Assembly (NCBI RefSeq): GCF_016865425.1
Contig: NZ_AP023355.1
Span: 3,098,198-3,162,197, forward strand
Length of the DNA: 64,000 nt
Direction of reading: 5' to 3'
Origin: Actinocatenispora thailandica
Lineage (GTDB): Bacteria; Actinomycetota; Actinomycetes; Mycobacteriales; Micromonosporaceae
The number at the start of each line of letters is the position of its first letter. The stretch's first letter is position 1. The notes beneath the pieces are model-generated. The model searched no databases. It saw only the letters and a program-made list of their open reading frames with translations, and had not been told where the DNA came from. Below are positions 31,040 to 49,792 of this stretch, one piece after another. The position numbers were made by a program, and so were the translations under genes.

Positions 31040-31306
31040 GTGTCCGGAACCGTGGCCAGTCCCGAAGGAATCACCAACCCCCCGATCGACGAGCTGCTCG
31101 AGAAGACGCCGTCGAAGTACGCCCTGGTCATCTTCGGCGCCAAGCGCGCCCGCCAGATCAACGCGTACTACTCGCAGCTCGGCGAGGGCCTGTTGGAGTA
31201 CGTCGGGCCGCTGGTCGAGACCACCCCGCAGGAGAAGGCGCTGTCGATCTCACTTCGGGAGATCAACGCCGGCCTGCTCACCGCCGAGCCCACCAACGAG
31301 GCCTGA
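31040..31306 (+). CDS. rpoZ: DNA-directed RNA polymerase omega subunit
   Basis: 88 residues. The core [35 protein letters not shown] is the actinobacterial omega signature, binding the beta-prime C-terminus. The tail [16 protein letters not shown] is also conserved. The GTG at 31040 gives a 10-residue lead; a GAGG at 31026 may serve as ribosome site. The 184-bp gap after gmk may carry its own promoter. Confidence 0.93.
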
Positions 31307-45915: not shown

Positions 45916-45937
45916 TGGTCTAGACCAGTAATAGCAT
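45916..45937 (+). promoter_or_regulatory. DasR-like operator and promoter of the aminosugar-type operon
   Basis: The 12-bp palindrome TGGTCTAGACCA (45916-45927) matches the core of the DasR/NagR responsive element known from Streptomyces. A TANNNT box TAGCAT follows at 45932-45937, ending seven bases before the GTG at 45944. A repressor on the palindrome would block the promoter. The GntR/UTRA regulator encoded at the end of the operon is the likely binder. Confidence 0.75.
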
Positions 45938-45943
45938 GTCGTG

Positions 45944-46858
45944 GTGTCCGAGACGGTGGATGTCGCGATCGACGCCGGTCAGACCGGCGTGCGGGTCGGC
46001 GTGGTGCGGCGCGGCCGGCTGGTCGCCCGGCGGGATGGCCCGGGGCTGACCTACGGCGCGGAGTCCGGCTCCGCTGCCGCTCTCGACGGGCTGACCGGAC
46101 CGTGGCGGGCGGTCGCGCCGGACGCCACGGTCGGCTCGGTGTGCGTGGGGTTGACCAGCGTGCTCGGCGGCGACGCCGGCTACCGCGCGCTGGCCGACGG
46201 ACTGCTGGACCGGCTCGCCGCGCATCGCGTACTGCTCGGCGGCGACGTGGTGACCGCGCACGCCGGAGCGCTCGGCATGTGCCCTGGCGTGGTCCTCGCC
46301 GCCGGTACCGGCGCCATCGCCCTGGGGCTGAGCGCCGACGGGCGTTGCCACACCGTCGACGGCGGCGGCTACCTGTACGGCGACGCCGGTGGCGGCTTCT
46401 GGGTCGGTCGCCGTGGCCTGGACGCCGCCCTGCGCGGGTACGACGGGCGCACCGAGCCTGGCCCGCTGACCCGCAGGGCCACCGAGGTCTTCGGCGACCT
46501 CGGCCGGCTCCCCGAGCGGCTCTACCCGGCCGACGACCGGGTGGCCCAGGTGGCCGGCTTCGCCCGGCACGTGCTGGAACTGTCCGACTCCGACCCGGTG
46601 GCCGCGGCGATCGTCGACACCGCCGCCGCCGAGTTGGCCGCGACCACCGCCGCGGCCGGCGGCGACGACGTCTCCTGGACCGGCCGGCTGCTGCAGCACG
46701 ACGGGCTGCGGGAGCGGTTCGCCGCCGCGTTGCACGCCCGGCGCCCGTCGGCGCGCCTGCACCCGCCGGCGGGCGACGGTCTGGACGGCGCCGCCGCGCT
46801 CGCCGCCAGTACCGACCTCGGCCCGTACGTCGGGTTGCTGCGGGTGGTGACGCGATGA
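45944..46858 (+). CDS. BadF/BadG-type ATPase, likely N-acetylglucosamine or other sugar kinase
   Basis: About 304 residues. Sugar-kinase/Hsp70/actin fold: phosphate 1 motif DVAIDAGQTGVRVGVVRRG, connect motif HAGALGMCPGVVLAAGTGAIALGL, and GGGYLYGDAGGGFWVGRRGLDAALRG, as in GlcNAc kinases of the BadF/BadG/BcrA family. It therefore probably phosphorylates an aminosugar with ATP. A second GTG one codon upstream is possible; the GTG at 45944 is chosen because it coincides with the predicted transcription start (leaderless). The stop overlaps the next ATG. It is the first gene of a four-gene operon with a hydrolase, a SIS protein and a GntR regulator. Confidence 0.85.
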   Translation: MSETVDVAIDAGQTGVRVGVVRRGRLVARRDGPGLTYGAESGSAAALDGLTGPWRAVAPDATVGSVCVGLTSVLGGDAGYRALADGLLDRLAAHRVLLGGDVVTAHAGALGMCPGVVLAAGTGAIALGLSADGRCHTVDGGGYLYGDAGGGFWVGRRGLDAALRGYDGRTEPGPLTRRATEVFGDLGRLPERLYPADDRVAQVAGFARHVLELSDSDPVAAAIVDTAAAELAATTAAAGGDDVSWTGRLLQHDGLRERFAAALHARRPSARLHPPAGDGLDGAAALAASTDLGPYVGLLRVVTR

Positions 46859-48108
46859 GGACCGGCTTCGCCGCGGTGCCGCTCCCGGTCACCGAACCCA
46901 CCCCGATGGGCGGCTACGCCGGCCGCGTCGGCGTCTCGGCCGGCACCCGGGATCCGCTCCAGCTCAGCGCCCTGACCTGGTCGGACGGGCATCACCGGCT
47001 CGCCCTCGTCCTGGCCGACCTGATCTGCGTCAACGCCGACGTGGTCGCCGCGGCACGAGCGGCGGTCACCGGGGTCGACGCGTTGTGGCTGGCGGCCAGC
47101 CACACCCACTCCGGGCCGGAGACCGGCTGCGTGCCGGGCGGTACCGCGACCCCGCCGCCCTGGTCGAGGTCGATCCCGGCGGCCGTGGCGGGTGTCGTCG
47201 ACCGGGCGGTACGGGCGGAGGCCGACAGCGTCGGCCGCTGGCGCACCGGGATCCTGACCGATGTGGGCTCGGTGCGCAGCGAGGCGGCCACCGACGCGCG
47301 GGTACCGCTGGATCTCGTCGAGGTGCTCGACACAGCTGGCGACCGCGCCGGGCTGCTGGTCGTGCTTCCCGTCCACCCGACCGTGCTGTCCGCCGACAAT
47401 CTGCTGGTCAGCGCCGACCTGGTCGGCGCGGTCCGGGCCGCGCTGGCCGAGCGGCTCGGCCCGGACATCTGGGTGGCCGTGGCCACCGGTACCGCCGGTG
47501 ACATCAGCACCCGGCACACCCGCCGCGGCCACGGCGGCGCCGAACTGAAGCGGCTGGCCGCCGCGGTGGCCGACCACTGCCTTGCCGAGCTCGCCCGACC
47601 AGCGGTGCCCGCCTGGGGCGCTGCCGATCGGTGGGACGGGCGGGCCCGGCGCACGCTGCTGACCCCCAAACCGTCGTCGGCGGCCGACCGGCAGGCGATG
47701 ATCGCCGCGGCCACCGAGGCGGTGGCGGCGGCCCGGCACGGCGGCGACCCGGCCACGGTGCGCATCGCGGAGGGCGACCTGACCGGCGCCCGGCTCGCCA
47801 GCACGATCGACGGGCCCGAGCACGAGATCGAGGCCGAGGTGGCGGTGGCACGCATCGGCGCGCTGGCGGTGGCCGCGCTGCCCGGTGAACCCTTCCTCGC
47901 GTTGGGGGAGACGATCCGCCGGTCCCGGCCGGGACCGACCGCGGTGCTCGGCTACGCGAACGGCTACCCGGGCTACCTGCCCACTCGCGACGCGTACCGC
48001 CGAGCGCGGTACGAGGTGCTTGCCGCCGCGGCGGCCCCCGGCTCCGGCGAACGGCTCGCCGGGATCGCCGCCGACCTGCTCACCGACCTGGACGGAGCGC
48101 ACCAGTGA
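46855..48108 (+). CDS. Neutral/alkaline ceramidase-fold hydrolase, short cytoplasmic form
   Basis: 417 residues. The N-terminal part resembles neutral/non-lysosomal ceramidases: PMGGYAGR near the start, LVLADLICVN, the zinc motif ASHTHSGPETG, VLPVHPTVLSADNLLVSADLVGA, and GTAGDIS. Ceramidases proper are exported, about 650 residues long and have a C-terminal immunoglobulin-like domain. This protein has no signal peptide and lacks that domain. It is encoded between a sugar kinase and a SIS protein, which points to an amide hydrolase on an aminosugar or glycoconjugate (for example a deacetylase-like step) rather than ceramide. The function is not proven. It overlaps both neighbours by four bases. 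Confidence 0.75.
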   Translation: MRTGFAAVPLPVTEPTPMGGYAGRVGVSAGTRDPLQLSALTWSDGHHRLALVLADLICVNADVVAAARAAVTGVDALWLAASHTHSGPETGCVPGGTATPPPWSRSIPAAVAGVVDRAVRAEADSVGRWRTGILTDVGSVRSEAATDARVPLDLVEVLDTAGDRAGLLVVLPVHPTVLSADNLLVSADLVGAVRAALAERLGPDIWVAVATGTAGDISTRHTRRGHGGAELKRLAAAVADHCLAELARPAVPAWGAADRWDGRARRTLLTPKPSSAADRQAMIAAATEAVAAARHGGDPATVRIAEGDLTGARLASTIDGPEHEIEAEVAVARIGALAVAALPGEPFLALGETIRRSRPGPTAVLGYANGYPGYLPTRDAYRRARYEVLAAAAAPGSGERLAGIAADLLTDLDGAHQ

Positions 48109-48857
48109 TCGATCAGGACGCCTACGCCGAGGTGGCCCGGGCCACGATCGACCGGTTCCTCGGCACCCAGCGCGACGCGATCACCCGGGCCGCTGCGGTG
48201 GTCGCGTCGGCGCTGCTGGACGGGGGAGTGCTGCAGGCCTTCGGTACCGGCCACTCCCGGGCGATCGCGCTGGAGCTGGCCGGCCGGGCCGGTGGCCTGG
48301 TACCGGCGAACCAGTTGGGCATCCGAGACGTCGTCTACTACGGCGACGCGCAGCCGGACGACATCCTCGATCCGCTGGTGGAGCGGGAGACCGGGCTGGC
48401 GGAGCGGATCTGGAAGCTGGCCCGGATCGAACCGGCGGACGTGTTCGTCGTCGCGTCCCACTCCGGTGGCAACGCCGCCATCGTGGAGATGGCCCAGCTG
48501 GCGAAGGGGCGCGGCCACCGGCTGGTGGCGATCACCTCGATGGCGCACACCCGGGCCATCACCCCGCGGCACCCGAGCGGGCAGCGGTTGGCCGATCTCG
48601 CCGACGTGGTCGTCGACAACTGCGCTCCGTACGGCGATGCGGCCGTCGAGCTGCCCGGTGGCGACCGGGTCGGCCCGCTGTCCAGCCTCACCGGCGTGCT
48701 GGCGGTCAACCTGCTGGTCGCGGAGGTGGCCGGCCGGTACCTGGCGGCCGGGTCGCCGCCCCCGGTGTACCGGTCGCTCAACGCGCCGGGAAACGAGGAG
48801 CGCAACGCCGCGCTGCTCGCCCGCTATGCCGGCCGGGTCCGGCTCGGCGACGCCTGA
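48105..48857 (+). CDS. SIS-domain protein (sugar isomerase / MurQ-like)
   Basis: 250 residues. One SIS phosphosugar-binding domain: GVLQAFGTGHSRAIALELAGRAGG, VFVVASHSGGNAAIVEMAQLAKGRGHRLVAITSM, and HPSGQRLADLADVVVDN. It matches the UPF0309/YfeU-like SIS group (sugar phosphate isomerases or N-acetylmuramate-6-phosphate etherase relatives). The MurQ catalytic Glu pattern is not clear. It would act on the phosphosugar made by the upstream kinase. The GTG overlaps the hydrolase stop (GTGA). Confidence 0.85.
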   Translation: MIDQDAYAEVARATIDRFLGTQRDAITRAAAVVASALLDGGVLQAFGTGHSRAIALELAGRAGGLVPANQLGIRDVVYYGDAQPDDILDPLVERETGLAERIWKLARIEPADVFVVASHSGGNAAIVEMAQLAKGRGHRLVAITSMAHTRAITPRHPSGQRLADLADVVVDNCAPYGDAAVELPGGDRVGPLSSLTGVLAVNLLVAEVAGRYLAAGSPPPVYRSLNAPGNEERNAALLARYAGRVRLGDA

Positions 48858-48877
48858 GTACCGGAGGAGCACCGACG

Positions 48878-49639
48878 ATGGCCCGCACCCGGCACGACAG
48901 GTTCCCGGCGATCGAGCTGCCCGAGTCGCTGGATGCTGGCCGGGCCAAGGGCGAGCAGCTGCGCGAGATCCTCGAAGCGATGGTGGCGCACCAGCCGCCG
49001 GGCACCCTGCTGCCGTCGGAACGTTCGCTCGCCGAGCGGTTCCGCCTGGCCCGGATGACGGTCCGGCAGGCGATCGACGACCTTGCCGTCCGCGGACTGG
49101 TCCGCCGCGCCAGGGGCACCGGCACGTTCGTCGCCGAGCCGAGGCTGTCTCACGGGACGACGGCGGGCTCGTTCAGCGACGACATGCGGCGCCGTGGGAT
49201 GGTGCCCGGCGCCCGGGTCGTCTCGGTACGGGAGCACTCGGCGAGCATGCTGGTGGCCGAACGGCTGCGCATCGGCGCGGGGGATCCGGTCGTGACCCTC
49301 GATCGGCTCCGTTCGGCCGACGGGGTTCCGATGGCGGTGGAACAGACCAGGCTGCCGGCGACCCGGTTTCCCGGTCTGGCCGACCTGATCTCCGACGACG
49401 TCTCGCTCTACGGCGTGCTCGCCGAACGGTGGGGGGTGCGGGTGCATCGCGCGGCTCACCGGGTGTCGGTCGTCGGTCTGGCGGAGACCGATGCGGCGCT
49501 GCTGGACGCACCGACCGGGCTGCCGTCGTTCCTGATCGAACGCACCGCGTACGACGAGGCGGGGCGGGTGATCGAATGGGGGCGCTCGCGCTATCGCGGT
49601 GACCGCTACGACGTGATCTTCGACGTCGCTGCGGACTGA
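48878..49639 (+). CDS. GntR/UTRA regulator, DasR/NagR-like (HutC subfamily)
   Basis: 253 residues. The N-terminal winged helix is KGEQLREILEAMVAHQPPGTLLPSERSLAERFRLARMTVRQAIDDLAVRGLVRRARGTGTFV. The UTRA effector domain spans about 95-250 (GARVVSVREHSASMLVAERLRIGAGDPVVTLDRLR, ending FLIERTAYDEAGRVIEWGRSRYRGDRYDVIF). DasR and NagR of this type sense glucosamine-6-P or GlcNAc-6-P. The strong ribosome site GGAGGAG is at about 48862-48868. With a TGGTCTAGACCA palindrome before the first gene, autoregulation of the operon by a phospho-aminosugar is the simplest model. Confidence 0.88.
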   Translation: MARTRHDRFPAIELPESLDAGRAKGEQLREILEAMVAHQPPGTLLPSERSLAERFRLARMTVRQAIDDLAVRGLVRRARGTGTFVAEPRLSHGTTAGSFSDDMRRRGMVPGARVVSVREHSASMLVAERLRIGAGDPVVTLDRLRSADGVPMAVEQTRLPATRFPGLADLISDDVSLYGVLAERWGVRVHRAAHRVSVVGLAETDAALLDAPTGLPSFLIERTAYDEAGRVIEWGRSRYRGDRYDVIFDVAAD

Positions 49640-49670
49640 CCGGGACCGGCGCAGCCGCGCTCAGCGACAG

Positions 49671-49708
49671 ATGCCCCTCCATCAGCGTTTCCGCTGGTGG
49701 AGGGGCAT
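49671..49708. terminator. Hairpin between the gntR gene and tRNA-Pro
   Basis: A 17-bp stem (ATGCCCCTCCA then CAGCG, with complement; one G-U pair) around a four-base loop TTTC spans 49671-49708. It lies between the convergent operon and tRNA-Pro and can end both transcripts. Confidence 0.85.
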
Positions 49709-49718
49709 CGAGGAACTG

Positions 49719-49792
<74 letters not shown>

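Follow-up and report, generated by a model that had tools for sequence, protein, structure and literature searches.

The four-gene operon at positions 45,941–49,639 of the 64,000-nucleotide stretch of the Actinocatenispora thailandica genome analysed here (the window) encodes, head to tail, a BadF-family sugar kinase (KIN), a short ceramidase-fold hydrolase (HYD), a UPF0309 SIS-domain protein (SIS) and a DasR-like GntR/HutC regulator, with an operator upstream at 45,916. There is about an even chance that it is under local control and salvages an N-acylated hexosamine of the N-acetylglucosamine (GlcNAc) or N-acetylmannosamine (ManNAc) type, with HYD and SIS doing the work of NagA and NagB. In the proposed pathway, KIN, or a phosphotransferase system (PTS) in one variant, would phosphorylate the sugar at C6, and NanE, where present, could provide an optional 2-epimerisation. 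HYD, acting in the cytoplasm as a metal-dependent amidase with the neutral-ceramidase fold, would then N-deacylate the sugar phosphate, and SIS would turn the resulting hexosamine-6-phosphate into ammonia and a sugar phosphate of glycolysis, which is the job of NagB elsewhere. Expression would be controlled by a DasR-type repressor on a single promoter-overlapping operator, released when hexosamine-6-phosphate binds the UTRA domain. This pathway covers most of the variant operons with the fewest assumptions.

An earlier note, made from the letters of the window, had read the unit as following the logic of aminosugar catabolism. This logic is supported by the NanE or mannose-family PTS of distant versions, the DasR-type operator, the sugar-6-phosphate-binding residues of the regulator, the relatives of SIS that adjoin NgcE GlcNAc/chitobiose transporters elsewhere in the family, and the conserved neighbourhood. 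The further suggestion that a glycoconjugate or cell-wall aminosugar is salvaged fares less well in its cell-wall part, as MurQ and NagA both score over their cut-offs elsewhere in the genome. The gene order, its conservation, the operator, the regulator contacts, the fold and the aligned metal-ligand positions come from sequence or from a structural model, and it is from these that we infer the substrate, the order of the steps, the deacylase and deaminase activities and the identity of the effector.

Gene families and layout

The gene order, coordinates and four families named in the earlier note agree with the open reading frames and with Pfam (Table 1). KIN matches BcrAD_BadFG (PF01869) at 42.9 bits (cut-off 31.5), SIS matches SIS_2 at 131.3 bits, and the regulator matches UTRA at 136.8 and GntR at 53.2 bits; the match of HYD to Ceramidase_alk (PF04734) is marginal (33.7 bits, cut-off 32.1). 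The genes had been described as overlapping by a few bases, which is true of the KIN/HYD and HYD/SIS junctions (4 bp each) and not of the SIS–GntR junction, where a 20-bp gap contains GGAGGA. The unit itself indeed holds no transporter, deaminase or NagA gene, and a NagA was found elsewhere in the genome. Throughout, gene names taken from open reading frame calls were assigned by eye except where a family scan is cited, and some genes were mis-called.

Table 1. Features of the operon and its promoter in window coordinates
Feature	Position	Strand	Basis or remark
DasR-type operator TGGTCTAGACCA	45916..45927	.	perfect palindrome; core GGTCTAGACC
Putative -10 box TAATAG	45929..45934	+	sequence; TATTAC/TATTAG at the equivalent place in five orthologous loci
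KIN: BadF-family sugar kinase, NagK/MurK-like, 305 amino acids	45941..46858	+	PF01869
HYD: short ceramidase-fold hydrolase without C-terminal domain, 417 amino acids; candidate N-acylhexosamine-6-phosphate deacylase	46855..48108	+	PF04734, Foldseek
SIS: UPF0309 / PRK02947 SIS-domain protein, 250 amino acids; candidate hexosamine-6-phosphate isomerase/deaminase	48105..48857	+	NF002805
GntR/HutC regulator, DasR-like, 253 amino acids; presumed autorepressor	48878..49639	+	UTRA and GntR domains

KIN scores 43.1 bits against the NCBIfam NagK_SO3507 equivalog, far under the cut-off of 370, and its sequence matches include hexokinase 2e2n, the NagK-like protein 1zc6 and the N-acetylmuramic acid (MurNAc)/GlcNAc kinase 8zo3 (1.4e-9). 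The N-terminal and central kinase motifs are invariant in 14 of 14 aligned kinases; for locus L063, the translation used strays from the correct frame over part of the C-terminal end.

Conservation of the unit

The earlier note had proposed a search for co-occurrence of the four families across actinobacterial genomes, and the unit is conserved. Among 200 family genomes, HYD was matched in 22 at E 1e-3, and in ten of these the match reaches E 1e-60 or better; at 1e-8 it was matched in 8 of 396 genomes of the phylum, the window genome included. In Actinocatenispora comari, of the same genus, HYD is 81% identical. Neighbours were checked at 27 loci with a HYD match, 15 of which have HYD of at least 40% identity over most of its length (the close loci); the weak matches (E 8e-5 to 6e-4) in another eight genomes of the family fell outside this check. 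A kinase lies upstream of HYD in all 15 close loci, directly in 13 and with NanE between in L063 and L064; L044 holds only the end of the kinase. SIS follows HYD in 14 of the 14 close loci that could be evaluated. The remaining one, L048, was counted among the 15 as far as its contig reaches and was excluded from the SIS count since the contig ends in HYD; the genome that matches it (G093) carries the remainder of HYD and SIS side by side on another contig (C582). Among the other 12 loci, in which HYD is less than 40% identical or matched over a short length, SIS is present in two (L068 and L073) and absent from ten.

Two of the Nonomuraea loci show irregularities. SIS of Nonomuraea sp. G32, counted above, is only a partial match (L045, 9209–9541), and the HYD match of N. 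endophytica is in two pieces (L049, 8001–9497); in either case decay or a sequence error is possible.

Operator, promoter and regulator

The palindrome that the earlier note had placed on the promoter is perfect and stands immediately before TAATAG, one base 5′ of it and 13 bases 5′ of the GTG of KIN, and a consensus sigma-70 scan called no promoter at this place. The exact 12-mer TGGTCTAGACCA occurs once in the 7.43-Mb genome, with seven more sites at one mismatch (backwards control, 29), and the 10-bp core GGTCTAGACC likewise has a single occurrence (control pattern, 11). At up to two mismatches, three matches lie in the window against 0.79 expected, and 5 of 100 shuffles reach three, so that inexact matches carry little meaning. 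One of the sites in the window, TGGTCGAGACCA at 31212–31223, is one mismatch from the operator and is probably due to chance.

Operators were scored within 300 bases upstream of the kinase at six close loci and at five Nonomuraea/Rhizohabitans loci; L044, where the start of the kinase is missing, and a further five, more distant loci of the family that have GntR genes of their own (L063–L066 and L068) were left out. The motif is at the promoter in all six close loci, perfect in four and as GGTATAGACC, which has one mismatch, in two. The perfect core lies 14–18 bases from the start codon in the window locus, L048, L061 and L062; GGTATAGACC occupies the equivalent promoter position in L060, and also in L059, which has a perfect core at 161 bases in addition. 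In the six loci the motif is followed directly by TATTAC, TATTAG or TAATAG and, 6–10 bases on, by the start codon; this spacing suggests that the operator blocks the promoter and that the message, as predicted, is leaderless or nearly so. The five Streptosporangiaceae loci (Nonomuraea and Rhizohabitans), where no GntR relative was found, have no operator (0/5), the best sites having at least three mismatches.

The regulator (P0004) aligns with DasR at 154 bits and 39% identity, without gaps over 221 residues. It keeps the arginine pair R48 and R58 and the wing glycines G79 and G81, with which DasR reads DNA; R38, R48 and G69 of NagR are assigned roles in reading the dre site in the available part of PMC4333415. 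At the effector contacts of DasR, 10 of 14 residues are identical (S97, R142, R144, E154, S175, L176, Y177, R221, E232 and Y238), including the phosphate clamp of R142, R144, S175 and Y177, and the changes are T99 to S, Y98 to F (F also in NagR), E193 to H and V234 to G; the roles of these contacts are those given in the available parts of PMC4918961 and PMC4333415. The effector is therefore probably a sugar-6-phosphate. Because several of the contact residues are common across the HutC family, according to the former source, the match is not specific and does not establish glucosamine-6-phosphate as the effector.

The ceramidase-fold hydrolase

An AlphaFold model of HYD built from six sequences has a mean predicted local distance difference test (pLDDT) score of 76 and a predicted template modelling (TM) score of 0.83, and the loops at 85–91, 139–146, 175–187, 216–226 and 381–390, some of them near the presumed active site, have pLDDT below 50. 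Foldseek matched the model to neutral ceramidases (2zws, 1.2e-18; 2zxc, 1.4e-18; 4wgk, 5.7e-17 and 2.4e-16), and the next match after these has E 0.23. The superpositions give TM scores of 0.66–0.71 on the query with a root-mean-square deviation of 7–8, at 14–18% identity in the structural alignments. H83, H85, H174, E345 and Y374 of HYD align with H97, H99, H204, E411 and Y448 of the Pseudomonas neutral ceramidase, of which H97, H204, E411 and Y448 are, we assume, metal ligands. All 19 aligned HYDs, five alphaproteobacterial ones included, retain these five positions, and 14 of the 19 retain S218.

HYD has 417 residues compared with 646–688 for neutral ceramidases, and the C-terminal domain is absent. 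Its relatives straddle the PF04734 cut-off, those of L045 and L064 falling under it. HYD matched no NCBIfam profile at E 0.01, that of NagA (TIGR00221) included, and no signal peptide was seen by eye. Because of the latter and of its place between a kinase and SIS, the substrate of HYD is likely to be an amide other than ceramide, as the earlier note had supposed. Among the papers listed by searches of the open-licence PMC literature, none assigned a function to a short ceramidase-fold protein encoded in a sugar operon.

More distant ceramidase-like proteins occur in other surroundings. In L067 (5563–10357) and L072 (4244–8999) they lie near transporter genes and a probable short-chain dehydrogenase/reductase (by eye), in clusters that also hold ILVD/EDD- and DHDPS-family enzymes (by Pfam in L067), and in such sugar-acid pathways the ceramidase-fold protein could be a lactonase. 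In L079 (4294–9960) the neighbours of one include a beta-N-acetylglucosaminidase (PF07555, 219 bits) and a member of the amidohydrolase family, NagA-like by eye.

The SIS protein

SIS belongs to NF002805 (PRK02947; 271.9 bits, cut-off 135), and its closest solved relatives are 3cvj and NagS (SCO4393; 9eol), to which it is 34.2% identical over 228 aligned residues. In the available part of PMC12680351, NagS is a GlcNAc-6-phosphate dehydratase for which H53, R64, E94 and D179 are essential, S91 is a substrate contact whose replacement by alanine costs 40-fold in kcat/Km, and three UPF0309 homologues from outside the Streptomycetaceae, 25.7–35.7% identical to NagS, are inactive on GlcNAc-6-phosphate. 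H53, R64, E94, D179 and N228 are kept in all 25 aligned rows, NagS included. Position 91 is proline in 12 of 12 aligned Micromonosporaceae and Streptosporangiaceae rows, the window SIS among them, and methionine in the five alphaproteobacterial rows. SIS lies outside the group that was delimited for NagS (at least 58.7% identity, Streptomycetaceae, nagS–dmdR1 linkage), and its neighbours differ.

In the alphaproteobacterial SIS proteins (L081, L086, L090, L091 and L092), N-A-Y-G replaces SxSG, so that the phosphate-binding serines are gone, and the stretches read carry no kinase annotation. A second UPF0309 SIS in the window genome (G000:C1:5272029-5272763; L069, 6018–6764), 53% identical to the first, faces a BadF kinase (PF01869, 81.9 bits) and has no HYD. 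By eye, no NgcE-type gene is present in the 12.5 kb of L069; the locus L154 (G012), of the same genus, has one adjoining SIS.

Variant operons

Other versions of the operon include transport and epimerisation. L063, L064 and L068 combine GntR and transporter genes with KIN–NanE–HYD–SIS; NanE (PF04131) scores 176 and 178 bits in L064 and L068 and was assigned by eye in L063, and a solute-binding protein and one permease of L064 were confirmed by scan, the other transporter genes of these loci being read by eye. L065 has a solute-binding protein, two permeases (by eye), KIN, HYD and SIS. In L073, IIA, IIB and IIC–IID components of a mannose-family PTS accompany SIS and HYD, and no kinase was found; because this PTS would phosphorylate the sugar, the substrates of HYD and SIS should be sugar phosphates.

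Five annotated alphaproteobacterial plasmids, from Devosia, Nitratireductor, Microvirga, Ponticoccus and Martelella, also carry HYD and SIS, and in two more Nitratireductor records the two are adjacent by coordinates. A plasmid search with the window HYD (P0002) found nothing, and the matches came from queries with SIS and with the Martelella HYD. The plasmid operons hold a NagB/6-phosphogluconolactonase-family protein, SIS, an amidohydrolase, HYD, a solute-binding protein and permeases, and the downstream gene has the annotation of an AGE epimerase in Martelella (PF07221, 28.3 bits); in the other four it is mostly labelled hypothetical.

SIS without HYD is found with a kinase or PTS in L080, L087, L151 and L153–L155, and within a PTS operon in Listeria. 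At the five SIS-paralogue loci of the Micromonosporaceae that were retrieved, a BadF-kinase match lies near RpiR–SIS and an NgcE-type transporter protein in four (L151 and L153–L155; NgcE 547–613 bits, cut-off 399.65), and L152 has neither kinase nor NgcE; RpiR was scanned for in L151 only, and none is seen by eye in L154. Among the 200 family genomes, SIS is present in 149 at 1e-30 and NgcE in 193 at 1e-100. Of the 150 SIS places listed, at least 31 have a listed NgcE no more than 5 kb away, compared with about 0.24 expected under uniform placement, a count made among the matches listed (150 each) in related genomes that are not independent.

NagA, NagB and MurQ in the genome

Both NagA and MurQ score over their cut-offs in all four Actinocatenispora genomes, and in the window genome (275.7 and 362.6 bits) both are encoded outside the operon. 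The NagA gene is accompanied, by eye, by genes for a DeoR regulator, a second SIS protein, a ROK kinase, a PfkB kinase and a class II aldolase, a cluster that may serve N-acetylgalactosamine. Another route for aminosugars is therefore conceivable in this genome besides the operon, which may use a different substrate from the NagA cluster. NagB reaches its cut-off in none of the 200 family genomes, with 13 weaker matches at 1e-25 (best 227.9 against 236.9 bits), which leaves room for another deaminase. The NagB-family (PF01182) match of the window genome is probably a gluconolactonase because it adjoins likely zwf and opcA genes (by eye), and its homologue in genome G070 scores as pgl (213.9 bits). 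The gene for this probable gluconolactonase (G000:C1:2868414-2869108) is matched in two adjacent pieces, possibly because of a frameshift in the genome or in its sequence.

Two simpler arguments were rejected. That SIS is needed since the genome lost NagB does not serve as stand-alone evidence, the lack of a NagB over the cut-off being common to all 200 family genomes, and that HYD replaces a missing NagA fails in that form, all four Actinocatenispora genomes having one.

Weighing the alternatives

Several observations weigh against a salvage pathway in which HYD and SIS stand for NagA and NagB. The strongest is the composition of the alphaproteobacterial operons, where the two amidohydrolases scanned score as NagA-like (179 and 184 bits against a cut-off of 225.7) and the three NagB-family proteins scanned score as NagB-like (105–112 bits against 236.9); alongside such genes, HYD and SIS are not simple stand-ins, and there SIS lacks the phosphate-binding SxS and HYD has asparagine for S218. 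Similarly, UPF0309 adjoins nagB in Planococcus (nagE–nagA–nagB–GntR–SIS) and another SIS protein in Rhizobium (GntR–SIS–nagA–SIS), both without HYD, and L066 is a kinase–HYD–GntR locus without SIS. The window operon has no transporter gene, and its genome holds the separate NagA and MurQ described above. The palindrome, which the earlier note had proposed to look for before the orthologues and which does precede the close ones that were scored, was not found by an exact scan for GGTCNNGACC before the kinases or GntR genes of L063–L066 and L068. Finally, NagS, whose essential residues SIS keeps, is a dehydratase, and the distant HYDs lie in sugar-acid clusters, where a lactonase is equally likely.

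The last two points lead to different chemistries. SIS could act first and in the manner of NagS, converting an N-acetylhexosamine (HexNAc)-6-phosphate to a 6P-chromogen by elimination of the C3 hydroxyl, after which HYD would cleave the enamide and the resulting imine would lose ammonia to give a 3-deoxy-osulose 6-phosphate. The four residues essential in NagS, together with N228, agree with such a route, as does the deacetylation of 6P-chromogen I by Streptomyces NagA (available part of PMC12680351), and it would explain why HYD and SIS stand beside NagA-like and NagB-like genes in alphaproteobacteria. Although it fits these better, it conflicts with proline at position 91 in all the Micromonosporaceae and Streptosporangiaceae rows and with the inactive homologues, whose range of identity to NagS includes that of SIS, and the window operon offers no oxidoreductase for the product; on balance it is unlikely. 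Slightly less credence goes to the possibility that HYD cuts a different bond, acyl or ester, in a conjugate taken up by the cell (aminoacyl, long-chain acyl or lactone), upstream of an ordinary NagA. This would accommodate the coexistence of NagA with HYD in the window genome, the NagA-like protein of the alphaproteobacterial operons and the distant HYDs that adjoin sugar-acid enzymes (ILVD/EDD, DHDPS or MR_MLE), a setting that calls for a lactonase, but in the PTS version of L073 HYD would meet a sugar that is already phosphorylated, and elsewhere it sits within the kinase–SIS unit. Rather improbable is the more specific proposal that HYD and SIS are a dedicated dehydrating pair for HexNAc-6-phosphates, with spontaneous loss of ammonia making NagA and NagB dispensable; if it were true, what is a toxic side reaction of NagS and NagA in Streptomyces would be the main path here, and the occurrence of the pair next to NagA-like and NagB-like genes in alphaproteobacteria would be accounted for.

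The presence of a MurNAc/GlcNAc kinase among the matches of KIN, the relatedness of NagS and MurQ as SIS proteins (stated in the available part of PMC12680351) and the lack of a transporter, which fits recycling, would suit salvage of muramic acid or an N-glycolyl sugar, in which KIN acts on MurNAc or the N-glycolyl equivalent, SIS splits the lactyl ether as MurQ does, and HYD removes a glycolyl or peptide amide. The idea of a MurNAc etherase is weakened by the MurQ present in all four Actinocatenispora genomes, and NanE and the PTS and ABC transporters of other versions point to free HexNAc, so that this reading is judged improbable, a shade more so than the dedicated pair. That HYD is a genuine ceramidase or acyl-lipid hydrolase placed in a sugar operon by chance is very improbable: neutral ceramidases are its sole PDB matches with E below 0.001, but HYD has neither a visible signal peptide nor the C-terminal domain, and it is conserved with kinase and SIS in every close locus that could be evaluated.

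Relation to known systems

Salvage of an N-acylated hexosamine by this operon would parallel the nagK–nagA–nagB and nagP–nagAB systems under NagR in Bacillus or DasR in Streptomyces, with which it shares a kinase or PTS, amide hydrolysis, an SIS/NagB step, a GntR/HutC repressor and a dre-type operator. It differs in that HYD has the ceramidase fold rather than the amidohydrolase fold of NagA, in that SIS is a UPF0309 protein rather than NagB, and in having one exact operator in the genome. DasR is a global regulator with many dre sites per genome, a trait that is not seen here among sites with at most one mismatch. The aga operon comprises a PTS, the NagA-like AgaA and AgaS, of an SIS subfamily other than UPF0309; presumably L073 has the same layout of PTS, deacetylase and SIS-type deaminase.

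With NagS, SIS has in common the UPF0309 family and H53, R64, E94, D179 and N228, but it differs in overall sequence, in proline for S91, in its neighbours and in the bacterial family. HYD shares the fold and the aligned metal-ligand positions of the neutral ceramidases (2zws and 4wgk), but it is shorter, without their C-terminal domain or a signal peptide recognisable by eye, and lies within a sugar operon. The MurK/MurQ salvage of MurNAc likewise pairs a BadF kinase with an SIS enzyme, but this genome has its separate MurQ.

Aminosugar operons with a DasR/NagR repressor are already known. Neither a ceramidase-fold enzyme as deacylase nor a UPF0309 protein as deaminase was found among the papers listed by the open-licence PMC searches. 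Given the fixed pairing of HYD and SIS, together with a DasR-type repressor and a kinase or PTS, a few sugar phosphates should suffice to test both functions. If HYD is a HexNAc-6-phosphate deacylase, a lipid-amide fold would have a second role in aminosugar metabolism, and the labels "ceramidase" and "phosphoheptose isomerase" would be misleading.

Sequences downstream of the operon

On the 3′ side of the operon, a hairpin with 18-bp arms and no T-tract was read by eye at 49670–49709 of the window, and beyond it, at 49718–49792, the minus strand carries a tRNA-Pro(GGG) gene.

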